A stretch of 64,000 bases of DNA from Arbacia lixula (Eukaryota > Echinodermata > Echinoidea > Arbacioida > Arbaciidae), in contig OZ022597.1 in the NCBI GenBank assembly GCA_963669155.1, positions 9,759,605 through 9,823,604 on the forward strand, read 5' to 3'. The notes below the pieces were generated by a model, which saw nothing but the letters and a program-made list of their open reading frames with translations, was not told the DNA's origin and made no database searches. The position numbers and the translations under genes are program-made. Of this stretch, positions 27,001 through 59,416 are shown in pieces (within the stretch, counting starts at the first letter, position 1; each line of letters begins with the position of its first letter).

Positions 27001-28060
27001 AGTTTAAAATGAATATTTAGAATGGTTTGTGAACTACAAGAATTGAAAAAAAGATTTAACCGAAGAAGAGCACAAAAAACGAACAAAAGTGTTACATTTT
27101 GCTGACGTCTTCGCGACATGTCGTCGACGTCGCCCACAGAGCTGCCGTTGCCAAAACAAGTCAATGATGATGTTGCACATTTACTAGGCAACTAAACTAT
27201 ACAAATCAAGTTTGATAATTGGGCATAAAAAAATGTGTGTTAACACCTTTGTTATGATGGTACCATGTATCATATTCCGACCATTTTTGAAAAAAGGCTT
27301 TCCGGTAGTGACGTCATATTTGTGGTGATTTGGGGGTGGGGGGGGGGGGGGAAGCATCAGGTACACCTTGGCAGCAAAATATTTCTGTGATGTCCAGGGT
27401 ATATCGTTTCGACATATGGGGTCAGTTGCCCTTTTCACATGAATAAATCTTCTGGGCTCCCGGACTATGAATTTGACTATGTGATATATTACAGTTTGGA
27501 AATGCGATAGGCTATGACCAACATTGGTATTTCTAACAATAATTTAATGCAGCTTTTACACTGAGCTTGATACAAATGTATTTTACATAGTGCTTTAAAT
27601 CAACATTAAGATGCACCAGTGTGCTCTACGCTCGTGTTACAAGTGGCCAATTAAATATACTACAGAACGTAATAAGGTATTTCCGTGCTGCTACTGATAC
27701 GATTTAGCACCTTCCAGTAATGTTCTATACACCTCAATATGCAGTTATGCAATATATAGTTCTTGCGTTGATTGACCATTTCAGGGAAACCACTGTATAA
27801 TATTGCACAACGATCGAGAGAAGTTTGCTTTATATCCACATCAACTCGTCAAGCTGTAACGTTTCACATTATTAGAATCTCTCTTTTTCATAATTGAATT
27901 GTCACTATGAATTCACCAAGAAGCGATCCCGGGATGGTTCCCCAAGATGGTTCAGACCACGAGCACGTATTTTCTAAATGGTAAAGCGTATTAAGCGCAT
28001 TGACATTCTCATGTTCATTACGTCGAAACTCAAATATAACTTTATTTATCTTGCCACCAG

Positions 28061-28087
28061 GACATCATGTGTATCGACCTGGATTAG
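28061..28087 (+). CDS. microexon, 27 bp, phase 1-1 (GHHVYRPGL)
   Basis: Acceptor 'tttatttatcttgccaccag', donor 'attag|gtatgt'. With the preceding G it reads GHHVYRPGL, open. A duplicate with identical coding sequence is at 31723. Confidence 0.6.
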   Translation, partial: DIMCIDLD

Positions 28088-28570
28088 GTATGTATGCATT
28101 AACATTCCTATAAACTTAATACGAGTATTCCTACTTAGCTTTGATGAAGTCAATTTAGTCGACTTAGCACCTTGCAGTAATGTTTAATACACATAAATAT
28201 GCAGTTGCCTAGTCAGAGGTAGCACTGGGCAGGCCGGGATACAAACATACAAAATACTATAGTTCTTGCGTTAGTTGACCATTTCCAGGAAACTGCTTCA
28301 TAATGTTGCACAACGATCGAGAGAAGTTTGCTTTATAGCAACATCAACTCGTCAAGCTCTAACGTAACACACTGATGAGTTATCAGAATCTCTTTTTTCA
28401 TATTTCAATTCTCACTATAAATTCACAAAGAGGACATCCGGGAACGGTCTAGAAAACAGGGCCGTATTTCCTAGATGGTAGGGCGTATGGAAGGCATAGT
28501 ATCTTACGTATTGTAATGACATTCTAATGTAAATTAAGTTGAAACTTAAATGTTTTATTTTTTCCACCAA

Positions 28571-28612
28571 TACTCCTCGAATTAAATCTACCAGTGCCAA
28601 GCAGACCATCAG
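28571..28612 (+). pseudogene. microexon, 42 bp, ancestral acceptor lost
   Basis: Aligned to the intact exon at 29792, the acceptor CCAG has become CCAA (28567-28570). The frame stays open (VLLELNLPVPSRPS) and the donor 'cag|gttagt' is intact. An AG at 28593-28594 ('tctaccag') could serve instead and give an 18 bp phase 1-1 exon, VPSRPS. Confidence 0.5.
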
Positions 28613-29791
28613 GTTAGTATACTGTTGCATGTACATAAATACTACAATTCATACTCAGCTGTCAAACGTGAAGTTACAGTTATAATGTTTATAACTTAGT
28701 AGGACCTTCTCACAACTCAGCTTGAACAATGTGATACTAGTATACTACATTTTTGCCATTCCAAAAAGTATTCATAAAGGTTTACATACATTCATATTTG
28801 TGAGAATCATTTAATGGAGCATTTACACTGAACTTGATACACATGTATTGTAAATGGTGTTTTCAATCAATATGAATTGCACTTTGTTCTACCCTTCTGT
28901 TATACGCGGCCAGTTAAAAAAATACTGACCGATAACATATTTCCATGCTTCTACTGATACGATAAAGCACCTTGCAGGATTGCTTTGTACACCTCAATAT
29001 GCAGCCGCCTAGTCAATGGTAGCACTGGGCAGGCCGGAATGCAATTATACAAAACCTATAGTTCTTGCTTTACGTGACTGTTACACGGAAACGGCTGCAC
29101 AATTCTGCATAATAATCGAGACAAAATTGCTTCATGACACCAGCTCGTTAAGCAATAACGCTTTACGCTGAAGCGCTATTTGATTTTCTTTCATAATTAG
29201 ACTGTAACTATAGCTAGCATCATTTAATGGAGCATTTACGCTAAACTTGAAACAAATGTATTGTAAATAGTGTTTTAAATCAATATGAAATGCACCAATG
29301 TGCTATACGCTCATGTTATACGTGGCCGGTTAAATATACTACAGAACGTAATGAGGTATTCCAGTCTGCTACTGATACGAGTAAGCACCTTGCAGTAATG
29401 CTCTATGTACCTCAATATGCAGCTGCCTAGTCAAAGGTAGCACTGGGCAGGCCGGGATGCGATCATGCAAATTGCTATAGTTCTTGCTTTGGGTCACCAT
29501 TTCACGGAAACTGCTGCACCGTATTGCACAATGATCGAGATAAGTGTGCTTTATAGCCACATCAACTTCTCAAGGTCTAACGTATCACACTGATGAGTTA
29601 TCAAAATCTCTTTTTTTTGCATATTTCAATTCTCACTATGAATTCACAAAGGAGACATCCAGGGACGGTCTAGACCACAGGGCCGTATTTCCTAGATGGT
29701 AAGGCGTATGGAAGGCATTGTATCTTATGTATTGTAATGACATTCTATTGTTAATTAAGTTGAAACCTAAATGTTTTATTTTTTCCACCAG

Positions 29792-29833
29792 TACCCCTCG
29801 AACTATATCGACCACCGTTACCGCCAACACGAG
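29792..29833 (+). CDS. microexon, 42 bp, phase 1-1 (VPLELYRPPLPPTR)
   Basis: Acceptor 'ttttattttttccaccag', donor 'acgag|gttagt'. It reads VPLELYRPPLPPTR, strongly Pro-rich. It is the intact representative of the exon type whose acceptor is mutated at 28571, 32233, 33299, 34984 and 35770. Confidence 0.65.
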
Positions 29834-31722: not shown

Positions 31723-31749
31723 GACATCATGTGTATCGACCTGGATTAG
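31723..31749 (+). CDS. microexon, 27 bp, phase 1-1 (GHHVYRPGL)
   Basis: Acceptor 'atcttgcaaccag', donor 'attag|gtatgt'. The coding bases equal those at 28061 although flanking introns carry substitutions, an indel and the SINE-like insertion. Confidence 0.6.
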   Translation, partial: DIMCIDLD

Positions 31750-32232: not shown

Positions 32233-32274
32233 TACTCCTTGAACTAAATCTACTAGTGCCAAGCAGACCATCAG
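32233..32274 (+). pseudogene. microexon, 42 bp, ancestral acceptor lost
   Basis: CCAA replaces CCAG at the acceptor. Open in phase 1 (VLLELNLLVPSRPS); donor 'cag|gttagt' intact. Internal 'tctactag' at 32250-32257 is a possible new acceptor. Confidence 0.5.
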
Positions 32275-33298: not shown

Positions 33299-33340
33299 TA
33301 CTCCTCGAACTAAATCTACCAGTGCGACGCATAATACGAG
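33299..33340 (+). pseudogene. microexon, 42 bp, acceptor lost, strong donor
   Basis: Acceptor CCAA. Open (VLLELNLPVRRIIR), with a different 3' half from its relatives and a stronger donor 'acgag|gtaagt'. Internal AG ('ctaccag' ending 33322) would give an 18 bp exon. Confidence 0.5.
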
Positions 33341-33400
33341 GTAAGTATACATTTTCATTAAAATAAATGCAACAATTCATACTCAGCTGTCACACGTTAA

Positions 33401-33765
33401 AGGGCATCTACTGTACTGGGAAGGCAAAAAAGCCTTCAAAATGTAATTGTTAGCAATCTTCTTGCCAATGGTCTTAAATTCATGCATTGTCCATTTAAGA
33501 AGCTTGCTGAAAGTTATTTGCCCTCAAATGATCCACATCTAGAGTATTTAATGATTAATGATTAAATCCTCAAAATGTTCGGGCCGAACATTTGGAGGTT
33601 TTGTAATTTAATCACTCATTACTCCAATTGTAGATCATTTGAGGGCAAATAACTTTCAGCAAGCTTCTTAAATGGACAATACATGAATTTAAGACCATTG
33701 GCAGGAAGATTGCTAACAATTACATTTTGAAGGCTTTTTTGCCTTCCCAGTGCAGTAGATGCCCT
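33401..33765. mobile_element. TTAA-flanked palindromic MITE, 365 bp
   Basis: TTAA at 33397-33400 and 33766-33769 flanks ends AGGGCATCTACTG and CAGTAGATGCCCT. Arms are complementary almost throughout, with a centre near 33580 ('gttcgggccgaac'). Paralogous array units show the empty site ('cacacgtgaagttacag' type sequence), so a single TTAA was duplicated on insertion, as in the piggyBac superfamily. Confidence 0.85.
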
Positions 33766-34337
33766 TTAAGTAACAGTTATAATGTTCATTATTTATTAGG
33801 AACTTTTCACAACACAGCTTGAACAATATAATACTAATATAATACGTTTTTGCCATTCCAAAAGGTATACATAAAAGTATACAAAGATTCATATTTCTGA
33901 TAATCATTTAATAGAGCATTTACACTGAACTTGATACACAAGTATTACAAATGGTGCTTTTAATCAATATGAAGTGCACTTTGTTCTACCCTTCTGTTAT
34001 ACGTGGCAAGTTAGAAAAATACTGACCGTGACAAGATATTTCCATGCTTCTACTGATCCGATTAAGCACCTTGCAGTATTGCTCTGTACATCTCAATATG
34101 CAGCTGCCTAGTCAATGGTAGCACTGGGCAGGCCGGAATGCAATTATACAAAACACTATAGTTCTTGCTTTACGTGACTATTAAACGGAAACTGCTGCAC
34201 AATTTTGCATAATGATCGAGACATATTTTTGAGATGATAGGACGTATGAAGGGCATTTTATCTTACGCAGTCAAATTACCTTCTAAAGTTGATCAGTTTG
34301 AAACTCAAATGTTTTTTTTTCCTCATGCTACCAACAG

Positions 34338-34361
34338 GGGTATTGTCAGAAACCATAGCAG
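34338..34361 (+). CDS. microexon, 24 bp, phase 1-1 (GVLSETIA)
   Basis: Acceptor 'cctcatgctaccaacag', donor 'agcag|gttaat'. Reads GVLSETIA; shares the SE core of the other 24 bp exons. The donor differs from the usual gtatgt and is weaker. Confidence 0.5.
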
Positions 34362-34983: not shown

Positions 34984-35025
34984 TACTCCCCGAAGTAAAT
35001 CCACCAGTGCCAAGCAGACCATTAG
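34984..35025 (+). pseudogene. microexon, 42 bp, ancestral acceptor lost
   Basis: Acceptor CCAA. Open (VLPEVNPPVPSRPL), donor 'attag|gttagt'. Internal 'ccaccag' ends at 35007 as a possible acceptor. Confidence 0.5.
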
Positions 35026-35769: not shown

Positions 35770-35811
35770 TACTCCTCGAACTAAATCTACCAGTGCCATA
35801 CAAACCACCAG
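35770..35811 (+). pseudogene. microexon, 42 bp, ancestral acceptor lost
   Basis: Acceptor CCAA. Open (VLLELNLPVPYKPP), donor 'accag|gtaagt', a near-perfect consensus. Internal 'ctaccag' would give VPYKPP. Confidence 0.5.
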
Positions 35812-36262: not shown

Positions 36263-36313
36263 CTGTAGATCTAGGAAAATATCTACCAGAGCCTCAAACA
36301 CCTCCTCTAGAAG
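36263..36313 (+). CDS. microexon, 51 bp, phase 1-1 (AVDLGKYLPEPQTPPLE)
   Basis: Acceptor 'tctatcttttgccatacag', donor 'tagaag|gttagt'. Reads AVDLGKYLPEPQTPPLE, Pro/acidic. It belongs to the same exon family as 29792 but is longer. Units 2 and 3 have G in place of D. Confidence 0.7.
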
Positions 36314-36736: not shown

Positions 36737-36760
36737 ACAGTTCCTCTGAAGACGAACCAG
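36737..36760 (+). CDS. microexon, 24 bp, phase 1-1 (DSSSEDEP)
   Basis: Acceptor 'ctcttgctaccaacag', donor 'accag|gtatgt'. Reads DSSSEDEP, acidic and Ser-rich, resembling a casein-kinase-type phosphorylation site (inference). Identical in units 2 and 3. Confidence 0.7.
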
Positions 36761-38216: not shown

Positions 38217-38264
38217 GGACTCCAGTAACTACCTTGCCGCCGCCAAGTGCATCCAGCACAACAG
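38217..38264 (+). CDS. microexon, 48 bp, phase 1-1 (GTPVTTLPPPSASSTT)
   Basis: Acceptor 'gacttttcttcccgtcacag', donor 'caacag|gtaaaa'. Reads GTPVTTLPPPSASSTT, a mucin-like Thr/Ser/Pro segment likely to be O-glycosylated if extracellular (inference). Its flanking introns are unrelated to those of the other microexons, so it is a separate exon lineage carried in the same 10 kb cassette. Present in all three units. Confidence 0.7.
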
Positions 38265-39388: not shown

Positions 39389-40986
39389 CTTTAACTTCCA
39401 TGGTGATGTCGTCTGCTCCACCTGCGCATGCGCACTAGCCAATTATAGCATAATTTCTGCTATATTCAGTACTGCGCATGCCCATTTGCGCGCTTAATAC
39501 TGTATTGGATAACGGCAATTCACGTAACAAAGTTACATTAACTGGACGAATATTCTATGATTATGATTATGGCATAAAGACAAGAAGGCGGAAAATTAAA
39601 GATTTGTTGAATTTGATGTACGTGAAAAGGAAGTTGGTATTTTTGTTCAGTAAAATTGAGTATATCTGCCAAAAATGAATGATTAATCGTACTGCTTGTA
39701 ACACGTGTTATGATAATCCCTCCCTTTCCGTCTATGCCGCTGGTTGTCTCTCTATAATACACAGATGTACGCACATACGTATACACCCACACGCACTCGT
39801 ATCTTAGAATGACTAGAAGATTTGGTCCCTTAGATGATCTGTAACAAAACAAAACATAGTCACCGCTCACATTTCCTCTTCTCTACATCCGACCCCTGTT
39901 TCTCTTTAACATTCTCTCGCCTTCTCCCTTTCTACCAACGAATTCCACATTCTTTCCGTCTCTCTGTTGACCCATCTCCATTTCTCTCTCTTTATGTCAT
40001 ATTGTATGCCCTCTCGCTTTCCCTGTAGTACTTGCTGTATCTCCAAAATGTCATCATCACTATCAGGAAATCAATCATTTCACATTTATATTTTGGAACA
40101 TACCATTTGAAGTTGTTAGATACTAAAAGGGACAAGTTCTGACAGAATTAAATTCCTCTTGAAAACGTTTTTTACAATATTTCTTTGAAATATCTATTTC
40201 GAGAATGACCTTTACAATTTCGGACCTTAAGTGAGCCAATCGTGTCATTGCATGTAATCTCGACATATGTCACATTGTTCAACGATAACTGATATCAATG
40301 TACCACTATTTTGTGCCAGCTGCCCTAGCGTCATAGCAAGGCAAAATCATTGCTCAATACTTGTCAGAAATAGAAAGTCTACCAGCATCAGTTCTACTGA
40401 AGTGTTTACTACGTATGCTTAGTACAAGCCAGTTTGGTAGTCAGGAAAATGTTTAAACCAAAAATAATAGTTCTTCGATTTTAACCAACTTTGATAGGAA
40501 TGATCCATGGGTATCAGGGACCTCAAGTTCTTAAAATGGTGGTACGCAAGTGGCAAGGGGTATTGATTGGGGTGGCGCCCCAAATGGCCCTAGAGGGCTA
40601 ATTACATTTATTATTTGATTTTTTTCTCGAAGTCTCATGACTTAATTTTAACCAAATCTAAAATTCACCTCAGAAAAGAGGACCTAAGTTGTAAAAATGT
40701 ATATATATCTAAAAAATTCATATCAGATTTCATCAAAACTCGACAGATTATTCTCAGGCAATGGGAAAAAATGTTACAAACGGGGATCCCATCTGACATG
40801 AACTAAAAAAAAGCTACGAGAAGTTGGGTAACCATTTCACGGAAATTACTGCACAATTTTGCATAATGATTGAGACATATCTTTTAAATGGTATGGCGTA
40901 AAAGGGGCATTGTTTCTTTCGTAGTCAGATTGCCTTTTAACGGTGATGAAGTCGAAACTCATTTGTTTTCCCCTTGCTACCAATAG
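39389..40986. other. intron stretch of unit 1, no gene
   Basis: Contains 'tgcgcatgcgca' palindromes near 39422-39480, a pyrimidine-rich tract (39880-40025) and a short hairpin 'ggggtggcgcccc' near 40570. A 66-codon frame at 39478 is repeated in unit 2 but has changed residues and no splice context, so it is not called as a gene. Confidence 0.4.
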
Positions 40987-41010
40987 AGCTATCGTCAGAA
41001 ACGAAACCAG
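40987..41010 (+). CDS. microexon, 24 bp, phase 1-1 (ELSSETKP)
   Basis: Acceptor 'ttttccccttgctaccaatag', donor 'accag|gtatgt'. Reads ELSSETKP. Confidence 0.7.
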
Positions 41011-44690: not shown

Positions 44691-45013
44691 TTTCATTCAT
44701 TTTTTTTATCCCGCCCAGTCTTTGCAAATGCTTTCAGTAGGGGTGGGGGGGGGGGGGGGGGGGGGTTATGACGTTTTTCGAAAAAAATTATCCGCCCAGT
44801 CTCGTGGGGGTGCACGACCGAAAATAGTGGGGGGGGGGGCATTTGATATTGTGTCCCCCCCCCCCCCCCATTCGAAATGGTGGGGGGGGGGGGGGAGGGT
44901 TTTGACGTTTTTGTAAAAAAAAAATTGTACACGAACGAAAATAGTGGGGGGGGGGGGCATTTGATATTGTGTCCCCCCCCCCCCCCCCGTCCCCCCAGGG
45001 ATTTCCGCCAATG
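44691..45013. mobile_element. G/C-run-rich insertion
   Basis: Replaces the usual 'ctcaatatgcagctgcctag' of array units. Contains repeated ~130 bp modules 'cgaccgaaaatagt'-G-run-'catttgatattgtgt'-C-run, with G-runs of about 11-24 and C-runs of about 15-17. Long Gly- or Pro-rich open frames on both strands are artefacts of these runs. Confidence 0.6.
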
Positions 45014-45372
45014 GTCAGAGGTAGCACTGGGCAGGCCAGGATGATCAAACAAAATGCTATTATAGCTCTTGCTTTTGGTGACAATTTCACGGAAACTACT
45101 GCACAATATTGCTCAATGATCGAGAATATTTGCTTTATAGTCACATCAGCTCGTCAAGCCCTAACGTATTACACTGATGAATTATCAGAGTCACTTTTTT
45201 CATATTTCAACTCTCACTCTGAATTCACAAATGAGACATCCAGGGACGGTCAAGACCACGGGGCCTTATTTCCTAGATAGGGCGTATGGAAGGCATTGTA
45301 TTTTACGTAGTGTAATGACATTCTAATGTTAGTTACTTCGAAACATAAATGTTGTATTTTTTTTGCCTCCAT

Positions 45373-45423
45373 TACATCTATCAATGGATCTACCAACGTC
45401 AGACATTCCAGCCGACACACGAA
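45373..45423 (+). pseudogene. microexon, 51 bp, acceptor mutated to AT
   Basis: The acceptor reads 'gcctccat' instead of 'CCAG'. Open in phase 1 through 17 codons (starts VHLSMDLPTSDIP) and followed by 'gttaat' preceded by A rather than G. Confidence 0.5.
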
Positions 45424-45845
45424 GTTAATGTACATTTTCATATACATGAATACAGCAATTCGTACTCAGCTGCCACTTGTTAAGTTACAGTTATAATGTT
45501 CATTACTTATTATGACCTTCTCACAACACAGCTTGACCAATATACTACTAGTATACCACGTTTTTGCCATTCCAAAAGGTATTACATAGATTCATATTTG
45601 TGAGAATCATTTGATTGAGCATTTACACTGAAGTTTATACACATGTATTGCAAATGTCATGTATTACAATATGAAATGCACCAATTGTTCTACGCTCCTG
45701 TAATACGTGGCCAATGAAATACACTCATGAACGCACTGGGGTATTTCCGAGATGGGGGGCCGTGTGGATGCCATTGAATCTTACGTAGTGTAATGATATT
45801 CTAATGGTAATTAAGTCGAAACCTAAATGTTTTATTTTTTGCTAG

Positions 45846-45905
45846 ATGAAATAGCTTATTTACCCGGGACACGAATGCCACCCGTTATACGATCACTGTT
45901 ACGAG
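45846..45905 (+). CDS. microexon, 60 bp, phase 1-1, longest of the array
   Basis: Acceptor 'gttttattttttgctag', donor 'acgag|gttagt'. Reads DEIAYLPGTRMPPVIRSLLR, 20 residues, more basic and hydrophobic than the others. It uses a different acceptor context (gctag) from the CCAG family. Identical in unit 2 (56313). Confidence 0.65.
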
Positions 45906-46362
45906 GTTAGTATATATTTGCATTTACAGAAATAAAACAATTCATACTCAGCTGGCACACGTGAAGTTACAGTTATAATTTTCATTCCTTATTAAGACCT
46001 TCTCACAACTCAGCTTGAACATTGTAATAGTAATATACTACAATTTTGCAATTCCAATGTGTATTGCATACATTCATATTTGATAGAATCATTGAACTTG
46101 ATAGTAATGTAGCACTGTGCAGTGCAGGGTCGGATGCAAAGTCTAACGTATCACACTGATGAGTTATGAGAATCTCATTTTGTTTTTAATATTTGAACTC
46201 TCACTATAAATTCACGAAGGAGACATCCATGGACAGTCTACACCAACAAGCCGTATTTTGTTAGACGGAAGACGTATGGAAGGCATTGCACCTTACGTAG
46301 TGCAATGAAATTATACTGCTAAATGAAGTAGAAACGTACATTTTCTATCTTTTGCCATACAG

Positions 46363-46413
46363 CTGTAGGTCTAGGAAAATATCTACCAGAGCCTCAAACA
46401 CCTCCTCTAGAAG
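46363..46413 (+). CDS. microexon, 51 bp, phase 1-1 (AVGLGKYLPEPQTPPLE)
   Basis: Unit 2 counterpart of 36263 with D to G. Acceptor 'ttgccatacag', donor 'gaag|gttagt'. Confidence 0.7.
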
Positions 46414-46836
46414 GTTAGTATACATTTTCATTTACATAAGTACTACAATTCATACTCATTCGTCACACGTGAAGTTACAGTTGTAACGCTGATCACTTAT
46501 TAGGCCATTCTGACAACTCAGCTTGAAAAATCTAATACTAGTACACTACAATTTTGCAATTCCAGTATGTATTATATACATTCATATTTGTTAGAATCAT
46601 TTAATGGAGCCTTTACACTGAACTTTAAAGAAATGTAGCTCTGGGCAGGCCGGGATGCAAACATTAAACATGCTATAGTTCTTGCTTTGCGTGACCATTT
46701 CACTGAAACCACTGTACAACTTTGCATTATTGCAAGTGGTAGAGCGTATGAAGGGAATTGTATCGTTCGTGGTTATTTTACCTAACGGTGATTAAGTCGA
46801 AAGTCAAATGTTTTATTTTTCTCTTGCTACCAACAG

Positions 46837-46860
46837 ACAGTTCCTCTGAAGACGAACCAG
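46837..46860 (+). CDS. microexon, 24 bp, phase 1-1 (DSSSEDEP)
   Basis: Unit 2 counterpart of 36737, identical coding bases and splice sites. Confidence 0.7.
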
Positions 46861-47307
46861 GTATGTATTTAGTTGCATTTTCATAAATGTAACTATTCAT
46901 AGCGGCTACAGTGCATGAAATTACAATCCTATGGTTAGCATCATTTAATGGAGCATTTACACTGCACCTGATACAAATATAGCATATATATTCAAATGGT
47001 GCTTTCAATCAGTATCAAATGCACCTATGTGCTTTACCCTCCTGTTACACGTGGCCAATTAAGATAAACTACTGAACGTAATAGGTATTTCCATGCCACT
47101 ACTGATACGATTAAGCGCCTTGCAGTAATGTTCTATACACCCAAAAATGCAGTTGCCTTGTCAAAGTTAGCACTGGGCTGGCCGGGATGCAAATATAGAA
47201 AATATTATAGTTTTTGCTTTTCGTGGAAGGCATGGCATCTTACGTAGTGTAATGATATTGTAATGGTAATTAAGTCGAAAGTTAAATTTCGTATTTTTTG
47301 CCACCAA

Positions 47308-47358
47308 TACATTCATTAATGGAGCTTTAAACGTCAGATATACCAGACGTATCACTAG
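47308..47358 (+). pseudogene. dead microexon, unit 2 copy
   Basis: Shares the CCAA acceptor, internal TAA and CT donor lesions with 37208, plus private substitutions. Confidence 0.6.
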
Positions 47359-48314
47359 CTTAATCTACATTTTCATTAAAATAAATACAAAAATTCAAGC
47401 TCAGCTGTCACACGTGAAGTTACAGTTAAAATGTTCTTTACTGATTAGGTCTTTCTCACAACACAGCTTGACAATGTAATACTACTATACTACAATTTTG
47501 CAATTCCAATATGTATAACATACATTCATATTTGATAGAATCACTTAAAAGAGCATTTACACTGAACTTCGTACACATGTATTGCAAATGGCCAAATGTG
47601 AAATGCACATTTTCGAAAAGAATTGTACACAACATAATTATGAGAGAGGTTACCTCGCACGTCACGTCAAAAAATCAACATTTTAAAGATCAGAACTTTC
47701 TAACCCTTTGATGGAATTTCGTCAAACCTTCACTAATGTGTTTCTTTCATGTGTCTGCTTTTATTGAAACCAACATTTCATTTATCATACTTATGATGAT
47801 AATGTGGACTTGCCCTTTTGGTATATGAATAGGACATGGAATTGAGAGCACAGTGTATTTTGTTTGTGCTCTTCATCCGTCAAAGCTAATGCGATTCTAT
47901 CCCGCCTTTTTCAAAGAGAGTGTATATTGATCGCACTAAGAAGAGAGGTAGAAATGGACAACGATCACAGTGTAATAATTGCAAACGAAGTACAATACAA
48001 AAACATAAGATTCAAATAACATTTGAGAACATTGATATCATTTGAAGAAAACAAATCAAATATCCTGAAATATCTCATAACTGCGGCATTGACCGGTATT
48101 TGGTTATACTTTAAAAGAGGACTTTGTTAGAACTGAAATTACTTCGTGGTTGTGTTCCAAATGCTGGAAACGATAAGCAAATTAGAACATTCAATGATTA
48201 TTATGGTTCTCTGTCACTCCATACCGACCGATGGAAATCATGTTTATTGTCAGTGCAATAATGCCTCAATGACGCATGGACAGTTAATTTACTGACTTTT
48301 CTTCCCCGTCACAG

Positions 48315-48362
48315 GGGCTCCAGTAACTACCTTGCCGCCGCCAAGTGCATCCAGCACAATAG
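48315..48362 (+). CDS. microexon, 48 bp, phase 1-1 (GAPVTTLPPPSASSTI)
   Basis: Unit 2 counterpart of 38217 with two replacement changes (T to A at residue 2, T to I at residue 16). Splice sites intact ('gtcacag', 'atag|gtaaaa'). Confidence 0.7.
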
Positions 48363-48972
48363 GTAAAAATCTAAATAACTTTGTATATTTACATATTTGT
48401 TCTTTTCCGGACTCTTGATTCTTTAAGAAAACATAATTGTTTTCCACATTTTCAGCGCCTTCGCAACCGCTAATATTGCTATTACACAAATGTATACTGC
48501 ATATATAACAATTTAAACAAAATATTTATCCAAGTGTGCTTTAAAATCGTGCAAAGGAGCCGGTCTCAAATACATCCTGCTATAGAGAATGAAAAGCTTT
48601 GAATATGGTGAAATGGACTTGATGTAATATAACCATGCTCGGTTTTGTATGTACTGTAAGTTTATTACAAATAAGAACGCTGTATTGAGTTATTTACCTC
48701 AATGAGAAAAACGCTAAATGGAGCAGCTGTCATAATTAGTAATAAACAGCATCGCTCTAAATATTATAATCATTACTTTTATTAATATCATTAGTAAGAA
48801 TAGTATAATTATGTAGTATAGGTTTTGTTGATAAATAATGTTTATTCTCATGAGATTTATCGTTATCATCATATTCATTGGCCGGTATTCTGAAGTCGGG
48901 TTTAACTAAGCCGGGACCAAAGTTAGAATCGAGTTTAATTAGTCCTGGCTTAAACGTGACTTTGGGCTTAAA

Positions 48973-49486
48973 GACAGCCCGTCCATTTTTCAGGTCACCA
49001 CAAAACCATCAAAACATTGGCAAACATATAGAAAAGTGTTAGCAAGCTGTATATTCATAATTTGAAACTGATACAAAGTGTAAAATTCAAATAATGCACG
49101 TAAACAACGTCTGATTAATAGTCTTTACCCCAGGCTCTTAGCAGGTTGTGATGAAATATCTGCTTTATTGATTAATCTATTTATCAAATTATGAAACGAA
49201 TTATGAAAAGAAAAGTTCTATCGAAGAAATCATCGCCAAAGTTTGGTAATTACTTATAAAATTGGGATTTCAGACATGCTTAATAACCACATAAATACTG
49301 TAACAAAGACTGATACTTTTTCGTTGTACGAAAAAAGTCGGTTTGAAATTTAACGGCTGAAATTTTTACATATACAGAAAGCTTCAACATGCTATATTCT
49401 TAAAAATGGTCTTGAATCACACTTTCTTCAATTTGCGATCGTGATAGATGATTTCAAATTTGAAGCTTGCAAAAGGGACGGACAAT
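48973..49486. mobile_element. ~514 bp MITE, unit 2 copy
   Basis: Counterpart of 38875-39388, carried by the 10 kb duplication rather than by new insertion. Confidence 0.65.
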
Positions 49487-51084
49487 CTTTAACTTCCATG
49501 GTGATGTCGTTTGCTCCACCTGCGCATGCGCACTAGCCAATTTTAGCATAATTTCTGCTATATTCAGTACTGCGCATGCCCATTTGCGCGCTTAATACTG
49601 TATTGGATAACGGCAATTCACGTAACGAAGTTACATTAACTGGACGAATATTGTATGATTATGATTATGGCATAAAGACAAGAAGGCGGAAAATTAAAGA
49701 TTTGTTGAATTTGATGTACGTGAAAAGGAAGTTGGTATTTTTGTTCAGTAAAATTGAGTATATCTGCCAAAAATGAATGATTAATCGTACTGCTTGTAAC
49801 ACGTGTTATGATAATCCCTCCCTTTCCGTCTATGTCGCTGGTTGTCTCTCTATAATACACAGATGTACGCACATACGTATACACCCACACGCACTCGTAT
49901 CTTAGAATGACTAGAAGATTTGGTCCCTTAGATGATCTGTAACAAAACAAAACATAGTCACCGCTCACATTTCCTCTTCTCTACATCCGACCCCTGTTTC
50001 TCTTTAACATTCTCTCGCCTTCTTCCTTTCTACCAACGAATTCCACATTCTTTCCGTCTCTCTGTTGACCCATCTCCCTTTCTCTCTCTTTATGTCATAT
50101 TGTATGCCCTCTCGCTTTCCCTGTAGTACTTGCTGTATCTCCAAAATGTCATCATCACTATCAGGAAATCAATCATTTCACATTTATATTTTGGAACATA
50201 CCATTTGAAGTTGTTAGATACTAAAAGGGACAAGTTCTGACAGAATTAAATTCCTCTTGAAAACGTTTTTACAATATTTCTTTGAAATATCTATTTCGAG
50301 AATGACCTTTACAATTTCGGACCTTAAGTGAGCCAATCGTGTCATTGCATGTAATCTCGACATATGTCACATTGTTCAACGATAACTGATATCAATGTAC
50401 CACTATTTTGTGCCAGCTGCCCTAGCGTCATAGCAAGGCAAAATCATTGCACAATACTTGTCAGAAATAGAAAGTCTACCAGCATCAGTTCTACTGAAGT
50501 GTTTACTACGTATGCTCAGTACAAGCCAGTTTGGTAGTTAGGAAAATGTTTAAACCAAAAATAATAGTTCTTCGATTTTAACCAACCTTGATAGGAATGA
50601 TCCATGGGTATCAGGGACCTCAAGTTCTTCAAATGGTGGTACGCAAGTGGCAAGGGGTATTGATTGGGGTGGCGCCCCAAATGGCCCTAGAGGGCTAATT
50701 ACATTTATTATTTGATTTTTTTCTCGAAGGCTCATGACTTAATTTTAACCAAATCTAAAAGTCACCTCAGAAAAGAGGACCTAAGTTGTAAAAATGTATA
50801 TATATCTAAAAATTTCATATCAGATTTCATCAAAACTCGACAGATTATTCTCAGGCAATGGAAAAAATGTTACAAACGGGGATCCCATCTGACATGAACT
50901 AAAAAAAAAAGCTACGAGAAGTTGGGTAACCATTTCACGGAAATTACTGCACAATTTTGCATAATGATTGAGACATATCTTTTAAATGGTATGGCGTAAA
51001 AGGGGCATTGTTTCTTTCGTAGTCAGATTGCCTTTTAACGGTGATGAAGTCGAAACTCATTTGTTTTCCCCTTGCTACCAATAG
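49487..51084. other. intron stretch of unit 2, no gene
   Basis: Counterpart of 39389-40986. Nothing further recognised. Confidence 0.4.
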
Positions 51085-51108
51085 AGCTATCGTCAGAAAC
51101 GAAACCAG
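51085..51108 (+). CDS. microexon, 24 bp, phase 1-1 (ELSSETKP)
   Basis: Unit 2 counterpart of 40987, in the first 372 bp copy. Confidence 0.7.
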
Positions 51109-51456
51109 GTATGTATTTAATCGCATTCCCATGAATACAAGTATTCCTACTAGGCTACAATGCGTAGAATTACATTCATATTTGTTAAAATCATTTAATG
51201 GAGCACTTACACTAAACTTGATGCAAAACTATTGCAAGTAGTGCCTTCAATCAATATGAAATGCACCAATATGCTCTACGCTCCTGTTTTACCTGGCCAA
51301 TTAATTAAACTACTGAACGTGATAAGGTATTTCCATGCTGCTACTGATACGAATAAGCACCTTGGAGTAATGCTCTATATGCAGCTGCCTAGTCAGAGGT
51401 AGCATTGGGTAGGCCGGGAAGTCGAAACTCATTTGTTTTCCCCTTGCTACCAATAG

Positions 51457-51480
51457 AGCTATCGTCAGAAACGAAACCAG
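51457..51480 (+). CDS. duplicated microexon, 24 bp, phase 1-1 (ELSSETKP)
   Basis: Second copy created by the 372 bp duplication, found only in unit 2. Both splice sites and all 24 coding bases match 51085. Confidence 0.7.
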
Positions 51481-52251
51481 GTATGTATTTAATCGCATTC
51501 CCATAAATACAAGTATTCCTACTAGGCTACAATGCGTAGAATTACATTCATATTTGTTAAAATCATTTAATGGAGCACTTACACTAAACTTGATGCAAAA
51601 CTATTGCAAATAGTGCCTTCAATCAATATGAAATGCACCAATATGCTCTACGCTCCTGTTTTACCTGGCCAATTAATTAAACTACTGAACGTGATAAGGT
51701 ATTTCCGTGCTGCTACTGATACGAATAAGCACCTTGCAGTAATGCTCTATATGCAGCTGCCTAGTCAGAGGTAGCATTGGGTAGGCCGGGATGCAAATAT
51801 ATAAAAAAAAATCTATAGTTCTTGCTTTGTACAACTATTACACTATTACATGCACAATTTTGAATAATAATCGAGACAAAATTGCTTTATAACATCAGCT
51901 CTTCAAGCAATAACGTTTTACACTGAAGCGTTATTTGAATATTTTTTTTTTCACAATTAGATTGTAACTATAAATTCACAAAGGAGAGATCCATTGACAG
52001 TCTAGAACACACAGCAGTATTCCCTAGATAGTAGGACGTATGGAAGGCATTGCATCTTACGTAGTATAATAGAATTATAATGGTACTTAAGGCGAAACTT
52101 AAGTGTTGTCTATAAACATAAATATGCAGCTGCTTAATCAGAGGTAACACTGGATGCAAACATAATGTAGGGCATTGTATTTTACGTAGTCAAATTACCT
52201 GCTAAAGCTGATGAAGTAAAAATGATTCTTTTAACCTCTTGCTACCAACAG

Positions 52252-52275
52252 AGTATTCGTCAGAATTGGAAGTAG
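52252..52275 (+). CDS. microexon, 24 bp, phase 1-1 (EYSSELEV)
   Basis: Unit 2 counterpart of 41781, identical. Confidence 0.7.
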   Translation, partial: SIRQNWK

Positions 52276-52903
52276 GTATGTATTTAATCGAAGGTAGAGC
52301 GTATGAAGGGCATTAATTGTATATCACGTAGTCAAATGAGCTTCTAACATTCATGAAGTCGATTTAGTCGATTTAGCACCTTGCAGTAATGTTCTATACA
52401 CCTCAATATACAGTTGCCTAGTCAGAGGTAGCACTGGGCAGGCTGGAATGCAAATATTCAAAATCCCATAGTTCTTCTTTGTACAACTATTACACTATTA
52501 CATGCACAATTTTGAATAATAATCGAGACAAAATCACTTCATGACATCAGCTCGTAAAGCAATAACGTTTTACACTGAAGCGTTATTTGAATATTTTCTT
52601 CCCACAATTAGATTGTAACTATAAATTCACAAAGGAGAGATCCATTGACAGTCTAGAACACACGGCAGTATCTCCTAGATAGTAGGACGTATGGAAGGCA
52701 TTGCATCTTACGTAGTATAATGGAATTATAATGGTAATTAAGGCGAAATTTAAGAGGTGTCTATACACATCAATATGCAGCTGCGGTAATCAGAGGTAAC
52801 ACTGGATGCAAACATAATATAGGGCATTGTATTTTACGTAGTCAAATTACCTGCTAAAGCTGATGAAGTAAAAATGATTCTTTTTTCATCTCACTACCAA
52901 CAG

Positions 52904-52927
52904 AGCATTCGTCAGAATTGGAAGTAG
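52904..52927 (+). CDS. microexon, 24 bp, phase 1-1 (EHSSELEV)
   Basis: Unit 2 counterpart of 42433, identical. Confidence 0.7.
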   Translation, partial: SIRQNWK

Positions 52928-53101
52928 GTATGTATTTAATCGAAGGTAGAGCGTATGAAGGGCATTAATTGTATATCACGTAGTCAAATGAGCTTCTAAC
53001 ATTGATGAAGTCGATTTACTCGATTTAGCACCTTGCAGTAATGTTCTATACACCTCAATATGCAGTTGCCTATTCAGAGGTAGCACTGGGCAGGCCGGAA
53101 T

Positions 53102-54509
53102 GCGATTTTTTTTTCCGTGATGTTAACGCGTCACAACTGTCAATTCGCATTTTCTTGGCGTCTTGAATAAAGACCACGTCTGGTCTGCGCGCGATATGCG
53201 AATATGCGATATGCATGCGAATTGCACTACTACCTATAGCGCTTGCTACGCTGCTGCTACGTGTACGTGTAGAGTATGCATTAGTCAGCTCTACAGCAAT
53301 ACCATGTCTGAAACTGGATGTGAGGGTGCCTCAATTCCTCAACGGATCCAGTTATGTACATGTAGGTCTAGATCTTCTTCTTGTTCTAGATCATAGTCAT
53401 TAGAAATTCAATTCATAATCATAATCATAAATTATTCTATTCTAGTCACAGCCACAGGACTCGGTCTTAATTTAGAAGAGTCTACTAAGAGTAGCAGTAA
53501 CCAGTTAACATGTTACTGTTACAGAGCAATTTTGTTACTTCTAAAATTACACTACATTATGATATGAATTGAATTTCTTAATAAAAGTAACAACTAACAC
53601 TAGACCTATATACATGTAGTTATTTAACTTAACCCTAGACAAGACGAAACCGTCATAATTCTAAGACTAATTAAGTTCATGGACATCAAATAAAACGCGT
53701 GTTAATTAATGGCATGCATGCACAAAATTTGAAGTTTATCATTTTCAACTTTGACCTTTGTCTTTATAAACATGACTGTCAATTTGTGATTTCCATATCC
53801 ATGGTAATGCGGCATTAAAATGTTCATGAAGAAATTTTAGGAAGAGTCACCAAGTTTGAGGGAAAATGATCAGAGCATATTAATAGAGATGGCCTATAAT
53901 AGTTTGGTAGGGGCACAATGTGCCCCCCCCCCCCCTTGAGTAATATAGACTAATATTAAGTCTTCGCACCTAGATCTTGGAGGAAAGTATCCATGCTGAG
54001 TATGTACACAACTTAACATGATTCAGTACTTGTCTGATTGCAATATAGACCTAGAATCTAGATCTAGGGCCTAGCTAGACCAGATAGAATATTATAGGCA
54101 ATCACATTATTATCAGAGTCTGGAGTCTACTCAGAAAAGCATAGATCTTGATCTACACATTTTTTTGTATACATATATAACTCCTACATCTGTAGTTCTA
54201 CCCAGTCAGTTAAGACAAATGGATTCACATATTTATAAGGTGAACAATTTTAAATACATAGATAAAGTATGGAATTCCATAGATTGCAAGATCTACTAAT
54301 GCACACTCCGATCCGAGAGGTGTATTAAACTCTATTTTATCCACCTCTAGAGTCTATGTGCACACTATGCATTCGGCGATCATCGTATAGAAATGGAAGT
54401 CCACGCGCATGCGTACTGCCTACCTATATCGACAACGGCCTGCAATCAAGTCGCTCTGAGGAATAAAATTAGCCGATGTGACGCGTTAACATCACGGAAA
54501 AAAAATCGC
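53102..54509. mobile_element. 1.4 kb transposon, unit 2 copy
   Basis: Counterpart of 42631-44036 with the same flanks, so inserted before the 10 kb duplication. A C-run near 53923 is about two bases longer. Confidence 0.8.
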
Positions 54510-55163
54510 GGCCGGGATGCAAACATACAAAATACTATAGTTCTTGCGTTGGTTGATCATTTCAGGGAAACTACTACATAATATCCTAAAAATAAAATAA
54601 AGTATTTTCATGCTGCTACTGATACGATAAAAGCACCATGCAGTAATGCTCTATACACCTCAATAGGCAGCTGCTTAGTCAAATGTAACACTGGGCAGGC
54701 CGGGATGAAAACATAAATGAATATAGTTCTTGCTTTGCGTGACTATTACACGGAAAGTGCTGCACAATTTTGCACAACGATAGAGACATATTTGTTTTAA
54801 AGGAGAGCGTATGAAGGGCATTATTGTATCTTACGTAGTCAAACGACCTTCTAACAGTAATAAGGTCGAAATACAAATGTTTTTTTTTTTCTCTTGCTAC
54901 CAAGCATTCCCATAAACACAACTAGTCCTACTCGGCTGCAATGCGTGAAATTACATACATATGTGTTAGCATCATTTAATGGAGCATTTACACGTAACTT
55001 GGAACAAATGTATTGTAAATGGTGCTTTAAATGAACATGAAATGCACAACGTGCTCTACGCTCCTGCTAAAAATGGCCAATTAAATATACTACAGAACGT
55101 AATAAGGTATTTCCGTGCTTCTACTGATACGATTAAGCACCTTGCAGTATTGTTCTATACACC

Positions 55164-55480
55164 TTTCATTCATTTTTTTTATCCCGCCCAGTCTTTGCAA
55201 ATGCTTTCAGTAGGGGTGGGGGGGGGGGGGGGGGGGGGTTATGACGTTTTTCGAAAAAAATTATCCGCCCAGTCTCGTGGGGGTGCACGACCGAAAATAG
55301 TGGGGGGGGGGGCATTTGATATTGTGTCCCCCCCCCCCCCCCATTCGAAATGGTGGGGGGGGGGGAGGGTTTTGACGTTTTTGTAAAAAAAAAATTGTAC
55401 ACGAACGAAAATAGTGGGGGGGGGGGGCATTTGATATTGTGTCCCCCCCCCCCCCGTCCCCCCAGGGATTTCCGCCAATG
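55164..55480. mobile_element. G/C-run-rich insertion, unit 2 copy
   Basis: Counterpart of 44691-45013. Several G- and C-runs differ by one to three bases while the sequence between them is unchanged. Confidence 0.6.
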
Positions 55481-55839
55481 GTCAGAGGTAGCACTGGGCA
55501 GGCCAGGATGATCAAACAAAATGCTATTATAGCTCTTGCTTTTGGTGACAATTTCACGGAAACTACTGCACAATATTGCTCAATGATCGAGAATATTTGC
55601 TTTATAGTCACATCAGCTCGTCAAGCCCTAACGTATTACACTGATGAATTATCAGAGTCACTTTTTTCATATTTCAACTCTCACTCTGAATTCACAAATG
55701 AGACATCCAGGGACGGTCAAGACCACGGGGCCTTATTTCCTAGATAGGGCGTATGGAAGGCATTGTATTTTACGTAGTGTAATGACATTCTAATGTTAGT
55801 TACTTCGAAACATAAATGTTGTATTTTTTTTGCCTCCAT

Positions 55840-55890
55840 TACATCTATCAATGGATCTACCAACGTCAGACATTCCAGCCGACACACGAA
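55840..55890 (+). pseudogene. microexon, 51 bp, acceptor lost, unit 2 copy
   Basis: Counterpart of 45373 with the same AT acceptor lesion and an open frame. Confidence 0.5.
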
Positions 55891-56312
55891 GTTAATGTAC
55901 ATTTTCATATACATGAATACAGCAATTCGTACTCAGCTGCCACTTGTTAAGTTACAGTTATAATGTTCATTACTTATTATGACCTTCTCACAACACAGCT
56001 TGACCAATATACTACTAGTATACCACGTTTTTGCCATTCCAAAAGGTATTACATAGATTCATATTTGTGAGAATCATTTGATTGAGCATTTACACTGAAG
56101 TTTATACACATGTATTGCAAATGTCATGTATTACAATATGAAATGCACCAATTGTTCTACGCTCCTGTAATACGTGGCCAATGAAATACACTCATGAACG
56201 CACTGGGGTATTTCCGAGATGGGGGGCCGTGTGGATGCCATTGAATCTTACGTAGTGTAATGATATTCTAATGGTAATTAAGTCGAAACCTAAATGTTTT
56301 ATTTTTTGCTAG

Positions 56313-56372
56313 ATGAAATAGCTTATTTACCCGGGACACGAATGCCACCCGTTATACGATCACTGTTACGAG
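56313..56372 (+). CDS. microexon, 60 bp, phase 1-1
   Basis: Counterpart of 45846, identical coding bases and splice sites. Confidence 0.65.
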
Positions 56373-56829
56373 GTTAGTATATATTTGCATTTACAGAAAT
56401 AAAACAATTCATACTCAGCTGGCACACGTGAAGTTACAGTTATAATTTTCATTCCTTATTAAGACCTTCTCACAACTCAGCTTGAACATTGTAATAGTAA
56501 TATACTACAATTTTGCAATTCCAATGTGTATTGCATACATTCATATTTGATAGAATCATTGAACTTGATAGTAATGTAGCACTGTGCAGTGCAGGGTCGG
56601 ATGCAAAGTCTAACGTATCACACTGATGAGTTATGAGAATCTCATTTTGTTTTTAATATTTGAACTCTCACTATAAATTCACGAAGGAGACATCCATGGA
56701 CAGTCTACACCAACAAGCCGTATTTTGTTAGACGGAAGACGTATGGAAGGCATTGCACCTTACGTAGTGCAATGAAATTATACTGCTAAATGAAGTAGAA
56801 ACATACATTTTCTATCTTTTGCCATGCAG

Positions 56830-56880
56830 CTGTAGGTCTAGGAAAATATCTACCAGAGCCTCAAACACCTCCTCTAGAAG
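56830..56880 (+). CDS. microexon, 51 bp, phase 1-1 (AVGLGKYLPEPQTPPLE)
   Basis: Unit 3 counterpart of 46363. Acceptor 'ttgccatgcag', one base different; donor unchanged. Confidence 0.7.
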
Positions 56881-57303
56881 GTTAGTATACATTTTCATTT
56901 ACATAAGTACTACAATTCATACTCATTCGTCACACGTGAAGTTACAGTTGTAACGCTGATCACTTATTAGGCCATTCTGACAACTCAGCTTGAAAAATCT
57001 AATACTAGTACACTACAATTTTGCAATTCCAGTATGTATTATATACATTCATATTTGTTAGAATCATTTAATGGAGCCTTTACACTGAACTTTAAAGAAA
57101 TGTAGCTCTGGGCAAGCCGGGATGCAAACATTAAACATGCTATAGTTCTTGCTTTGCGTGACCATTTCACTGAAACCACTGTACAACTTTGCATTATTGC
57201 AAGTGGTAGAGCGTATGAAGGGAATCGTATCGTTCGTAGTTATTTTACCTAACGGTGATTAAGTCGAAAGTCAAATGTTTTATTTTTCTCTTGCTACCAA
57301 CAG

Positions 57304-57327
57304 ACAGTTCCTCTGAAGACGAACCAG
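57304..57327 (+). CDS. microexon, 24 bp, phase 1-1 (DSSSEDEP)
   Basis: Unit 3 counterpart of 36737, coding bases unchanged although the surrounding intron has substitutions. Confidence 0.7.
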
Positions 57328-57774
57328 GTATGTATTTAGTCGCATTTTCATATATGTAACTAGTCATAGCGGCTACAGTGCATGGAATTACACTCCTATG
57401 GTTAGCATCATTTAATGGAGCATTTACACTGCACCTGATACAAATATAGCATATATATTCAAATGGTGCTTTCAATCAGTATCATATGCACCTCTGTGCT
57501 TTACCCTCCTGTTATACGTGGCCAATTAAGATAAACTTTTGAACGTAATAGGTATTTCCATGCCACTACTGATACGATTAGGCACCTTGCAGTAATGTTC
57601 TATACACCTAAAAATGCAGTTGCCTTGTCAAAGGTAGCACTGGGCAGGCCGGGATGCAAATATAGAAAATATTATAGTTTTTGCTTTTCGTGGAAGGTAT
57701 GGCATCTTACGTAGTGTAATGATATTGTAATGGTAATTAAGTCGAGAGTTAAATTTTGTATTTTTTGCCACCAA

Positions 57775-58344
57775 TACATGCATTAATGGAGCTTTAAAGA
57801 CCGTCCCTTTTTCAGATCACCACAAAACCATCGAAACATTGGCAAAACGTATAGAGAAATGTTAGCAAGCTGTATATTCATAATTTGAAACTGATACGTA
57901 GTGCAAAATTCAAATAATGCACGTAAACAACGTCTGGTTAATAGTCTTTACCTCAGGCTCTTAGTAATTTGTGTTGAAATATCTGCTTTATTGATTAATC
58001 TGTTTATTAGATTATAAAACGCATTATGACAAAACATGAACTATAGAAGGAATCATCTCCAAAGTTTGGTAATTACTCATAAAATAAGGATTTCACACAT
58101 GCATAATAACCACATGGATACTGTAACAAAGACTAATACTTTTTTCGTAGTACGAAAAAAGTCGGTTTGAAATTTAACGGATGAAAATTTTACATATACA
58201 TAAAGCTTCAACATGCTATATTCTGAGAAATGGTCTTGAATCACACTTTCTTCAATTTACGATCGTGATAGACGATTTCAAATTTTAAGCTTGCAAAAGG
58301 GACGGACTATCTTCAAACGTCAGACATACCCGACGTGTCACTAG
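57775..58344 (+). pseudogene. dead microexon split by a MITE
   Basis: Counterpart of 37208. The halves 57775-57798 and 58318-58344 are separated by the MITE and its target duplication. Already dead (TAA, no donor) before insertion. Confidence 0.6.
57799..58310. mobile_element. 512 bp MITE inserted only in unit 3
   Basis: Ends 'gaccgtcccttttt' and 'aaaagggacggactat' are inverted. Flanked by 'ctttaaa' (57792-57798) and 'cttcaaa' (58311-58317), a 7 bp duplication with one mismatch. Units 1 and 2 show the empty site 'gctttaaacgtcag'. Related to the copies at 38875 and 48973. Confidence 0.8.
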
Positions 58345-59305
58345 CTTAGTATACATTTTCATTTAAATAAATACAAAAAAATCAAACTCAGCTGTCACAC
58401 GTGAAGTTACAGTTAAAATGTTCTTTACTGATTAGGTCTTTCTCACAACACAGCTTGACAATAAAATATTACTATACTACAATTTTGCCGCAATTCCAAT
58501 ATGTATAACATACATTCATATTTGATAGAATCACTTAAAAGAGCATTTACACTGAACTTCGTACACATGTATTGCAAATAGCCAAATATGAAATGCACAT
58601 TTCCGAAAAGAATTGTACACAACATAATTATGAGAGAGGTTACCTCGCACGTGACGTCAAAAAATCAACATTTTGAAGATCAGAACTTTCTAACCGTTTG
58701 ATGGAATTTCGTTAAACCTTCACTAATGTCTTTCTTTCATGTGTCTGCTTTTATTGAAACCAACATTTAATTTATCATACTTATGATGATAATGCGGACT
58801 TGCCCTTTTGGTATATGAATAGGACATGGAATTGAGAGCACAGTGTATTTTGTTTGTGCTCTTCATCCGTCAAAGCTAATGCGATGCTATCCCGCCTTTT
58901 TCAAAGAGAGTGTATATTGATCGCACTAAGAAGAGAGGTAGAAATGGACAACGATCACAGTGTAATAATTGCAAACGAAGTACAATACAAAAACATAAGA
59001 TTCAAATAACATTTGAGAACATTGCTACCATTTGAAGAAAACAAATCAAATATCCTGAAATATCTCATAACTGCGGCATTGACCGGTATTTGGTTATACT
59101 TTAAAAGAGGACTTTGTTAGAACTGAAATTACTTCGTGGTTGTGTTCCAAATGCTGGAAACGATAAGCAAATTGGAACATTAATTGATTATTATGGTTCT
59201 CTGTCACACTCCATACCGACCGATGGAAGTCATGTTTATTGTTAGTGCAATAATGCCTCAATGACGCATGGACAGTTAATTTACTGACTTTTCTTCCCGT
59301 CACAG

Positions 59306-59353
59306 GGACTCCAGTAACTACCTTGCCGCCGCCAAGTGCATCCAGCACAACAG
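59306..59353 (+). CDS. microexon, 48 bp, phase 1-1 (GTPVTTLPPPSASSTT)
   Basis: Unit 3 counterpart of 38217; peptide identical to unit 1. Acceptor 'cttcccgtcacag', donor 'caacag|gtaaaa'. Confidence 0.7.
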
Positions 59354-59416
59354 GTAAAATCTAAATAACTTTGTATATTTACATATTTGTTCTTTTCCGG
59401 ACTCTTGATTCTTTAA

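Follow-up and report, generated by a model that had tools for sequence, protein, structure and literature searches.

A phase 1-1 microexon array in the sea urchin Arbacia lixula, most likely encoding the linker of a Death-LRR-ZU5 protein

A stretch of 64 kb on contig OZ022597.1 of the Arbacia lixula genome (assembly GCA_963669155.1; contig C22 below, C22:9759605-9823604), called here the window, carries on its plus strand a long array of microexons that begin and end in phase 1. The array is genuine, and it is larger than the first-pass annotation of this DNA had described. It most likely encodes a linker of about 314 residues, rich in proline, serine, threonine and glutamate (P/S/T/E), within a Death-LRR-ZU5 protein, whose gene has the look of an immune or cell-death switch. 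We consider it probable that the array forms the central section of a giant gene, in which a Death exon, LRR-like exons (resembling leucine-rich repeats), the microexon linker and ZU5 and HFS exons succeed each other, and that the linker would serve as a flexible tether. The best evidence that the array is coding comes from the constraint on insertions and deletions (indels) in its exons.

Results

Number, phase and extent of the microexons

At least 22 symmetric phase 1-1 microexons had been reported before; the window contains 27 intact ones on the plus strand, 18-60 nt long, all of them multiples of three and open in phase 1. The former size range of 24-60 bp fits 23 of the 27, the other four being 18 nt long, and the exon at 34996-35025 (window coordinates, unless a contig or locus is named) is also readable as one of 18 nt. 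The array exons span 28061 to 59353. The earlier right-hand limit, 59353, is the end of the last exon, but the left-hand one, 27530, proved to be the edge of the repeat modules. The scan that yielded the 27 exons required G before the donor GT. With two further exons of gene 1, as we call the gene of the window array, and 23 of neighbouring units, the locus reaches 52 exons, a count for which weaker splice sites were admitted near module matches. An automatic acceptor rule places 50 of the 52 in frame; the remaining two have a nearer AG, which gives the 27-nt exon of their relatives.

A strict scan demanded a polypyrimidine tract, a [CT]AG acceptor, 15-66 nt of exon and G before a GT[AT][AT]GT donor, the donor pattern having been drawn up only after the exons had been seen. 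Between 27500 and 59400 it returned 18 plus-strand pairs, every one a multiple of three, and two minus-strand pairs, neither of them a multiple of three; the rest of the window gave no pairs on either strand. Sixty Markov copies of the array gave a mean of 0.8 pairs and a maximum of 3. When the window and 200 kb downstream were scanned for lengths up to 90 nt, 41 of 47 plus-strand pairs were multiples of three (some with stops), as were 6 of 11 minus-strand pairs.

The microexons are not independent of each other, most of them lying in tandemly duplicated modules; about 12 are distinct. Tests on distinct exons (phase, 18-nt and 24-nt classes) were made with recent copies excluded. All 12 distinct exons are open in phase 1, and stops occur in phase 0 in 7 and in phase 2 in 2 of them. 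Among 5000 shuffles of the 12, phase 1 was open throughout in 18, and any one phase in 44. The exons come in ten distinct lengths, every one a multiple of three.

In the genome searched (607 Mb, 590 contigs), module DNA matches at least 83 places, all on the plus strand of C22 between 9787134 and 10012861 (about 226 kb). The distance from one exon to the next in gene 1 is 769 bases at the median, with a range of 348 to 14825. Its linker is made of 29 microexons, or 942 nt and 314 residues, and bears out the modular P/S/T/E-rich segment of the first-pass annotation: 52.5% of the residues are P, E, S or T, and Cys, Phe and Trp are absent. A search of the 64-kb window against Rfam gave no match.

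Conservation of the reading frame

Exons were compared between units in 19 orthologous pairs, dead modules and repeated 27-nt exons being excluded; the pairs represent nine exon families and share sequences. Their flanks contain 125 indels in 6572 nt, 107 of them frame-breaking. From this, 11.3 frame-breaking indels are expected in the 692 exon nt (7.7 with one pair per family), and on balance there are none: 18 of the 19 pairs align gap-free, and the remaining one has two compensating single-base gaps. Splice dinucleotides are too weak to serve alone as evidence of coding and were set aside for this purpose. A codon-conservation scan between units picked out chiefly windows of retroelements, LRR-like sequence and repeats, and we do not count it as evidence.

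The peptide of the microexons changes faster than those of the ZU5, HFS and Death exons. Nonsynonymous change amounts to 15/629 in the pooled ZU5, HFS and Death exons versus 43/508 in the microexons (p=4e-6), or 15.5/233 in the latter with one pair per family (p=0.003). The last LRR-like exon, being as fast as the microexons, was kept out of this pool; its changes are mainly nonsynonymous (8.8/113 vs 1.2/34, 10.0/113 vs 1.0/34 and 12.5/113 vs 0.5/34 synonymous). Among the window microexons, a subset of four 18-nt exons stands out with a proportion of nonsynonymous differences (pN) of 0.38 against 0.05 for synonymous ones (pS), and with 8 of 18 exon sites variable versus 59 of 321 flank sites (p=0.013). 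The 24-nt class has no excess over its flanks (15/24 vs 91/159 variable sites, p=0.66). Positive selection across the whole array was considered and rejected, since the 18-nt signal does not persist in the 19 pairs between units and is absent from the 24-nt class.

Exons on both sides of the array

Whereas the parent protein was formerly unidentified, a Death-LRR-ZU5 parent can now be proposed from the flanking exons and their phases. ZU5 (Pfam PF00791) is matched 3' of the array in gene 1 and in its tandem copy (E 1.1e-12, 2.3e-11, 3.4e-14), and Death (PF00531) 5' of the array (E 3.6e-8, 5.5e-10). Genome placements of both domains are best candidates only; by these, the order on the C22 plus strand is Death at 9750219, ZU5 at 9841458 (gene 1, about 18 kb beyond the window end), Death at 9884026 and ZU5 at 10016647. 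The remaining match to either domain on C22 among the best candidates is one ZU5 at 8957996. The alternative that the Death exon forms the C-terminus of an upstream gene was rejected, the nearest upstream ZU5 match on C22 being 0.79 Mb off. No ZU5 match was found in unit 2 among the best candidates of the genome search; by Pfam, locus L011 has no ZU5 match, the domain lying in L010.

The conventional exons measure 221 nt (Death), 168 nt (LRR-like), 345 nt (ZU5) and 245 nt (HFS). Four LRR-like exons of phase 0-0 lie between Death and the array in gene 1, each with two 28-residue repeats recognised by eye. Two of them, at 950-1117 and 9569-9736 on the plus strand, are classed as LRR by pattern; the former is open, bounded by AG and GT, and has relatives in both genes. 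The last LRR-like exon (18309-18456, plus strand) is entered in phase 0 and left in phase 1 with a final G, as in 3 of 3 units. The ZU5 exon is of phase 1-1, and the exon after it, entered in phase 1, bears DHFSG. Phases thus fit on both sides and the same order recurs in the tandem copy, which places the array between the LRR-like and ZU5 parts. The HFS motif is present in both genes, 133 residues separating the start of the ZU5 match from its Phe. The solved structures closest to the ZU5 part are ZO-1 (E 3e-5) and ankyrin-2 (6e-5). Between the two genes, ZU5 exons differ at 8.0/268.7 nonsynonymous versus 5.0/76.3 synonymous sites and HFS exons at 2.0/191 versus 1.0/55, all of them small numbers.

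The Pfam scans covered plus-strand frames, though not every one, outside the array and outside loci L016-L025, and the minus strand of window 59300-64000; from Death to the array of gene 1, the plus-strand scan was continuous except for small gaps at 5201-5447 and 8556-9000. In this last interval no NACHT is among the matches. The frames scanned contain no CARD or Death exon C-terminal of ZU5, nor any match to Ig, FN3 or another extracellular or muscle domain. The joined peptide of the ZU5, HFS and next exons has no Pfam match to UPA, the C-terminus being incomplete.

Genome-wide there are at least 49 ZU5 and at least 87 Death matches, forming large expansions with clusters on contig C17 and elsewhere. 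The C17 cluster comprises four pairs of Death followed by ZU5, 22-39 kb apart, an example lying at 20393077 to 20415634; at some other loci ZU5 precedes Death, with about 5 kb or less between them. Next after the HFS exon, an exon at C22 about 9845737-9845943 resembles the desulfoferrodoxin N-terminal domain (Pfam E 8e-4, below the curated cut-off). An open frame at L032:8874-9047, repeated in the other unit, contains the motif SGDVERNPGP, which we take to be 2A-like; it may belong to a retroelement.

Modules, their exons and their duplication

Homologous modules and near-identical 10-kb blocks follow one another between 27.5 and 59.4 kb of the window. Profiles of the two main module classes cross-match; all hits are on the plus strand and, at E up to 0.01, none lies left of 27.5 kb. 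Most modules contain one microexon or the ruin of one. The exon scan returned all intact exons, among them GHHVYRPGL (27 nt, 28061-28087), VPSRPS (18 nt; 28595-28612, 32257-32274), VRRIIR (18 nt, 33323-33340), GVLSETIA (24 nt, 34338-34361, with the weak donor GTTAAT), VNPPVPSRPL (30 nt, 34996-35025, or 18 nt from 35008), VPYKPP (18 nt, 35794-35811) and the 48-nt exons GTPVTTLPPPSASSTT (38217-38264, outside the A/B modules, and 59306-59353) and GAPVTTLPPPSASSTI (48315-48362). The strict scan too found VPLELYRPPLPPTR (42 nt, 29792-29833), a second GHHVYRPGL (27 nt, 31723-31749), AVDLGKYLPEPQTPPLE (51 nt, 36263-36313, with further in-frame AGs giving 45, 39 and 24 nt), DEIAYLPGTRMPPVIRSLLR (60 nt; 45846-45905, 56313-56372), AVGLGKYLPEPQTPPLE (51 nt; 46363-46413, 56830-56880) and, in the 24-nt class, DSSSEDEP (36737-36760, 46837-46860, 57304-57327), ELSSETKP (40987-41010, 51085-51108 and, as a 372-bp tandem copy, 51457-51480), EYSSELEV (41781-41804, 52252-52275) and EHSSELEV (42433-42456, 52904-52927).

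The 10-kb blocks are evident from segment 36145-41321, which is 98.4% identical to 46247-51419, and from 40948-47331, which is 99.4% identical to 51418-57798. Unit 3 has a 27-nt exon (GKPKASRSR, GKPKASWSR, GKPKASLSR) in nine copies at about 770-bp spacing. That length and sequence vary with exon copy number, as formerly supposed, agrees with both the blocks and these nine copies. Shifts of acceptor are also seen. The 42-nt exon 29792-29833 has the acceptor CAG where five relatives read CAA, so that in these an in-frame AG 24 nt further in leaves 18 nt (30 nt in one); in a 51-nt exon of unit 2 the outer AG is now AC, leaving the in-frame 45-nt form. Some modules are dead: the donor GT is changed to CT near 37270, 47355 and 58338, and the exon is absent near 44431 and 54904. 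Others are doubtful, with weak donors at 45424 and 55891 and no good acceptor before 30670.

A second, different phase 1-1 microexon array lies 3' of the ZU5 region (C22 9847687-9852141) in four copies, with one relative in the other gene; three exons measure 60, 48 and 60 nt by the strict scan, and the other two 60 nt as counted by eye.

Several mobile or repeated elements accompany the array. A palindromic element of about 380 bp (33396-33775) lies in the intron after one microexon. An insert of about 1.4 kb with terminal inverted repeats (42631-44027) has a copy near 53106-54500, carried along by the 10-kb block duplication. The third block copy is interrupted by an insert of about 4.1 kb (59416-63511) with TTCTTTAA duplicated at its ends, block sequence resuming at about 63512. 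The left side of the array is adjoined by a large foldback-type inverted repeat, 91% identical (21719-23102 / 26071-27471), with inner tandem units of 242-243 bp. Further upstream there is a broken LINE-type retroelement (long interspersed nuclear element) on the plus strand at 5448-8555, with endonuclease, reverse transcriptase and zf-RVT matches in differing frames. Open frames at 16460-17523 resemble what we take to be a fragment of Penelope-type reverse transcriptase, and an inverted repeat pair (15789-16425 / 17293-17939) is close to them.

Discussion

Weighing of the explanations

Several observations count against our proposal of a translated linker. All exons described here are known from genomic sequence alone, and the gene model is incomplete at the exons joining Death to LRR and at the C-terminus. 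The LRR-like exons have neither a Pfam match nor a PDB profile match, their identity being given by pattern only. Dead modules are interspersed among intact ones, and the near-identical blocks could partly be assembly artefacts. Splice dinucleotides are intact in 12 of 13 mapped counterparts by a hand count, which is weak evidence. Over the 19 pairs pN is 0.085, not below pS (0.081), with the flanks at 0.083. Exon substitution patterns equal to those of the introns had been named beforehand as an argument against the exons; the rate is indeed equal (0.0837 vs 0.0829, p=0.94), but the indels are not, with none on balance versus 11.3 expected. Neutral-like substitution without net frame-breaking indels means that the reading frame is held and the peptide is almost free. 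The same equality of rates, the dead modules, and the spreading of DNA as repeats seen in the near-identical blocks would also be expected of a non-coding tandem repeat, that is, of old satellite-like or transposon-derived modules whose splice-like signals are relics and which are not translated now. We regard this as improbable, because it accounts neither for the intact frame and the openness of phase 1 nor for lengths that are all multiples of three and phases that match the exons on both sides. It is quite improbable, too, that the microexons were coding until recently and now belong to a pseudogene copy, or to one that skips them for the most part. Neutral-like rates, dead modules and the lack of a ZU5 match in unit 2 would suit such decay, but the microexon frame is kept, and per site the two genes have fewer nonsynonymous than synonymous differences in their ZU5 and HFS exons, small as these numbers are.

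Phase 1-1 exons are common among extracellular proteins, and the P/S/T/E-rich composition, together with the mucin-like look of the exon class GTPVTTLPPPSASSTT, might suggest an extracellular stalk or a titin-like spring of a different protein, in which case the Death, LRR-like and ZU5 exons would belong to other transcripts. The kinship with titin PEVK or mucin-like stalks proposed in the first-pass annotation finds no support. The array lies on the same strand between LRR-like and ZU5 exons with Death upstream, which a cytosolic signalling protein fits better than a stalk or spring; the phases fit on both sides, the order is the same in the tandem copy, and the frames scanned contain no extracellular or muscle domain. 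A secreted or titin-like parent, which we find very improbable, was set aside once exons of another parent had been found. The role of a linker inside a Death-LRR-ZU5 protein is a separate matter, in which we would rank a flexible tether first and a degron or protease bait second. As a tripwire-like bait, the linker would offer changing cut or degradation sites before a self-cleaving ZU5, and its cutting would release or destroy one side and so signal. The composition, free of Cys, Phe and Trp, agrees with this, as do the fast 18-nt exons, the equally fast last LRR-like exon, and the example of NLRP1, in which, according to the cited part of the source, viral proteases cut a fast-evolving linker and the FIIND cuts itself (PMC7857732). 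We nevertheless judge a bait unlikely: pN, pS and flank rates coincide over the 19 pairs, the 24-nt class has no excess, no CARD or Death exon follows ZU5 in the frames scanned, and the fast linker of NLRP1 is, as far as that source goes, N-terminal of the NLR rather than between LRR and FIIND.

Proposed origin and function

We propose that an ancestral module, consisting of an intron half, one symmetric microexon and another intron half, was tandemly duplicated many times, and that later growth took place also by duplication of 10-kb blocks. The microexons are predicted to be spliced into one mRNA with the Death, LRR-like and ZU5 exons, and the resulting linker, which reaches 314 residues in gene 1, would be a disordered segment joining the LRR-like part and the ZU5 part. 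As all exons are symmetric in phase 1-1, gain, loss or skipping of an exon or an in-frame shift of its acceptor merely lengthens or shortens the linker. The linker may thus be an exposed, flexible tether of adjustable length, setting how the LRR side reaches or releases the ZU5 side.

Comparison with known systems

Many short symmetric exons encode the P/E-rich disordered PEVK segment of titin. The array resembles it in having short symmetric exons for such a segment, but belongs to another parent gene, has much shorter exons, and lacks accompanying matches to Ig or FN3 in the frames scanned. Another likeness, that to PIDD1, consists in an LRR part (LRR-like exons here) before ZU5 and an HF/S motif directly after it, from which cleavage can be predicted here. 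The difference is that PIDD carries ZU5 twice and Death at its C-terminus, whereas here there is one ZU5 match per gene, with Death upstream of each. To our knowledge, PIDD contains no microexon array. PIDD is cut directly after its ZU5 domains at HF/S, and CARD8 and NLRP1 at SF/S, according to the cited section of PMC3210808, which also puts the cut of CARD8 at 296 and the start of its ZU5-like domain at 162. These 134 residues fit the 133 found here. With NLRP1 and CARD8, whose FIIND is ZU5-UPA, the locus shares a self-cleaving-type ZU5 module, here after LRR-like exons, and a fast-evolving linker matters. It differs from them in the position of the linker, in the lack of a NACHT or C-terminal CARD in the frames scanned, and in having no Pfam match to UPA. 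Passages of other papers mention NACHT-ZU5 architectures for early animals (PMC12909245) and fusions of ZU5/FIIND in marine immune families that have expanded (PMC8195603).

Very small symmetric exons are shared with the micro-exon genes (MEGs) of schistosomes. The cited parts of PMC4350168 and PMC5825161 describe many tiny symmetric exons, micro-exon duplication and fast evolution in MEGs, with alternative splicing proposed to yield pools of similar proteins; their products carry a signal peptide and are either secreted or anchored in a membrane, and the genes are apparently confined to flatworms. Here, in contrast, conventional Death, LRR-like and ZU5 exons flank the microexons, and the domains found are of a cytosolic kind. 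MEGs have most of their coding sequence in tiny exons; in gene 1, whose model is incomplete, 942 nt in 29 microexons stand beside conventional domain exons. A search of open papers brought up no account of a comparable tandem array of microexons.

Implications

A bolder interpretation, which we offer with little confidence, is a new route of innate-immune diversity: a Death-LRR-ZU5 sensor with a duplicating phase 1-1 microexon cassette as its linker, in which copy number, acceptor shifts and skipping would vary cut sites, degrons or tether lengths next to a self-cleaving ZU5, as a counterpart of the NLRP1 tripwire. Exons so short would probably escape ordinary gene finders, and the annotation of such a protein would then be fragmented or lack the central part. 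In the proposed gene, a disordered region of about 300 residues is built and rebuilt by tandem intron-exon-intron duplication, its frame under selection and its peptide almost free. If the linker sits where its phases place it, these exon dynamics would be tied to a self-cleaving, immune-type switch, and the locus would offer a testable system for how the length and content of a linker tune such switches.

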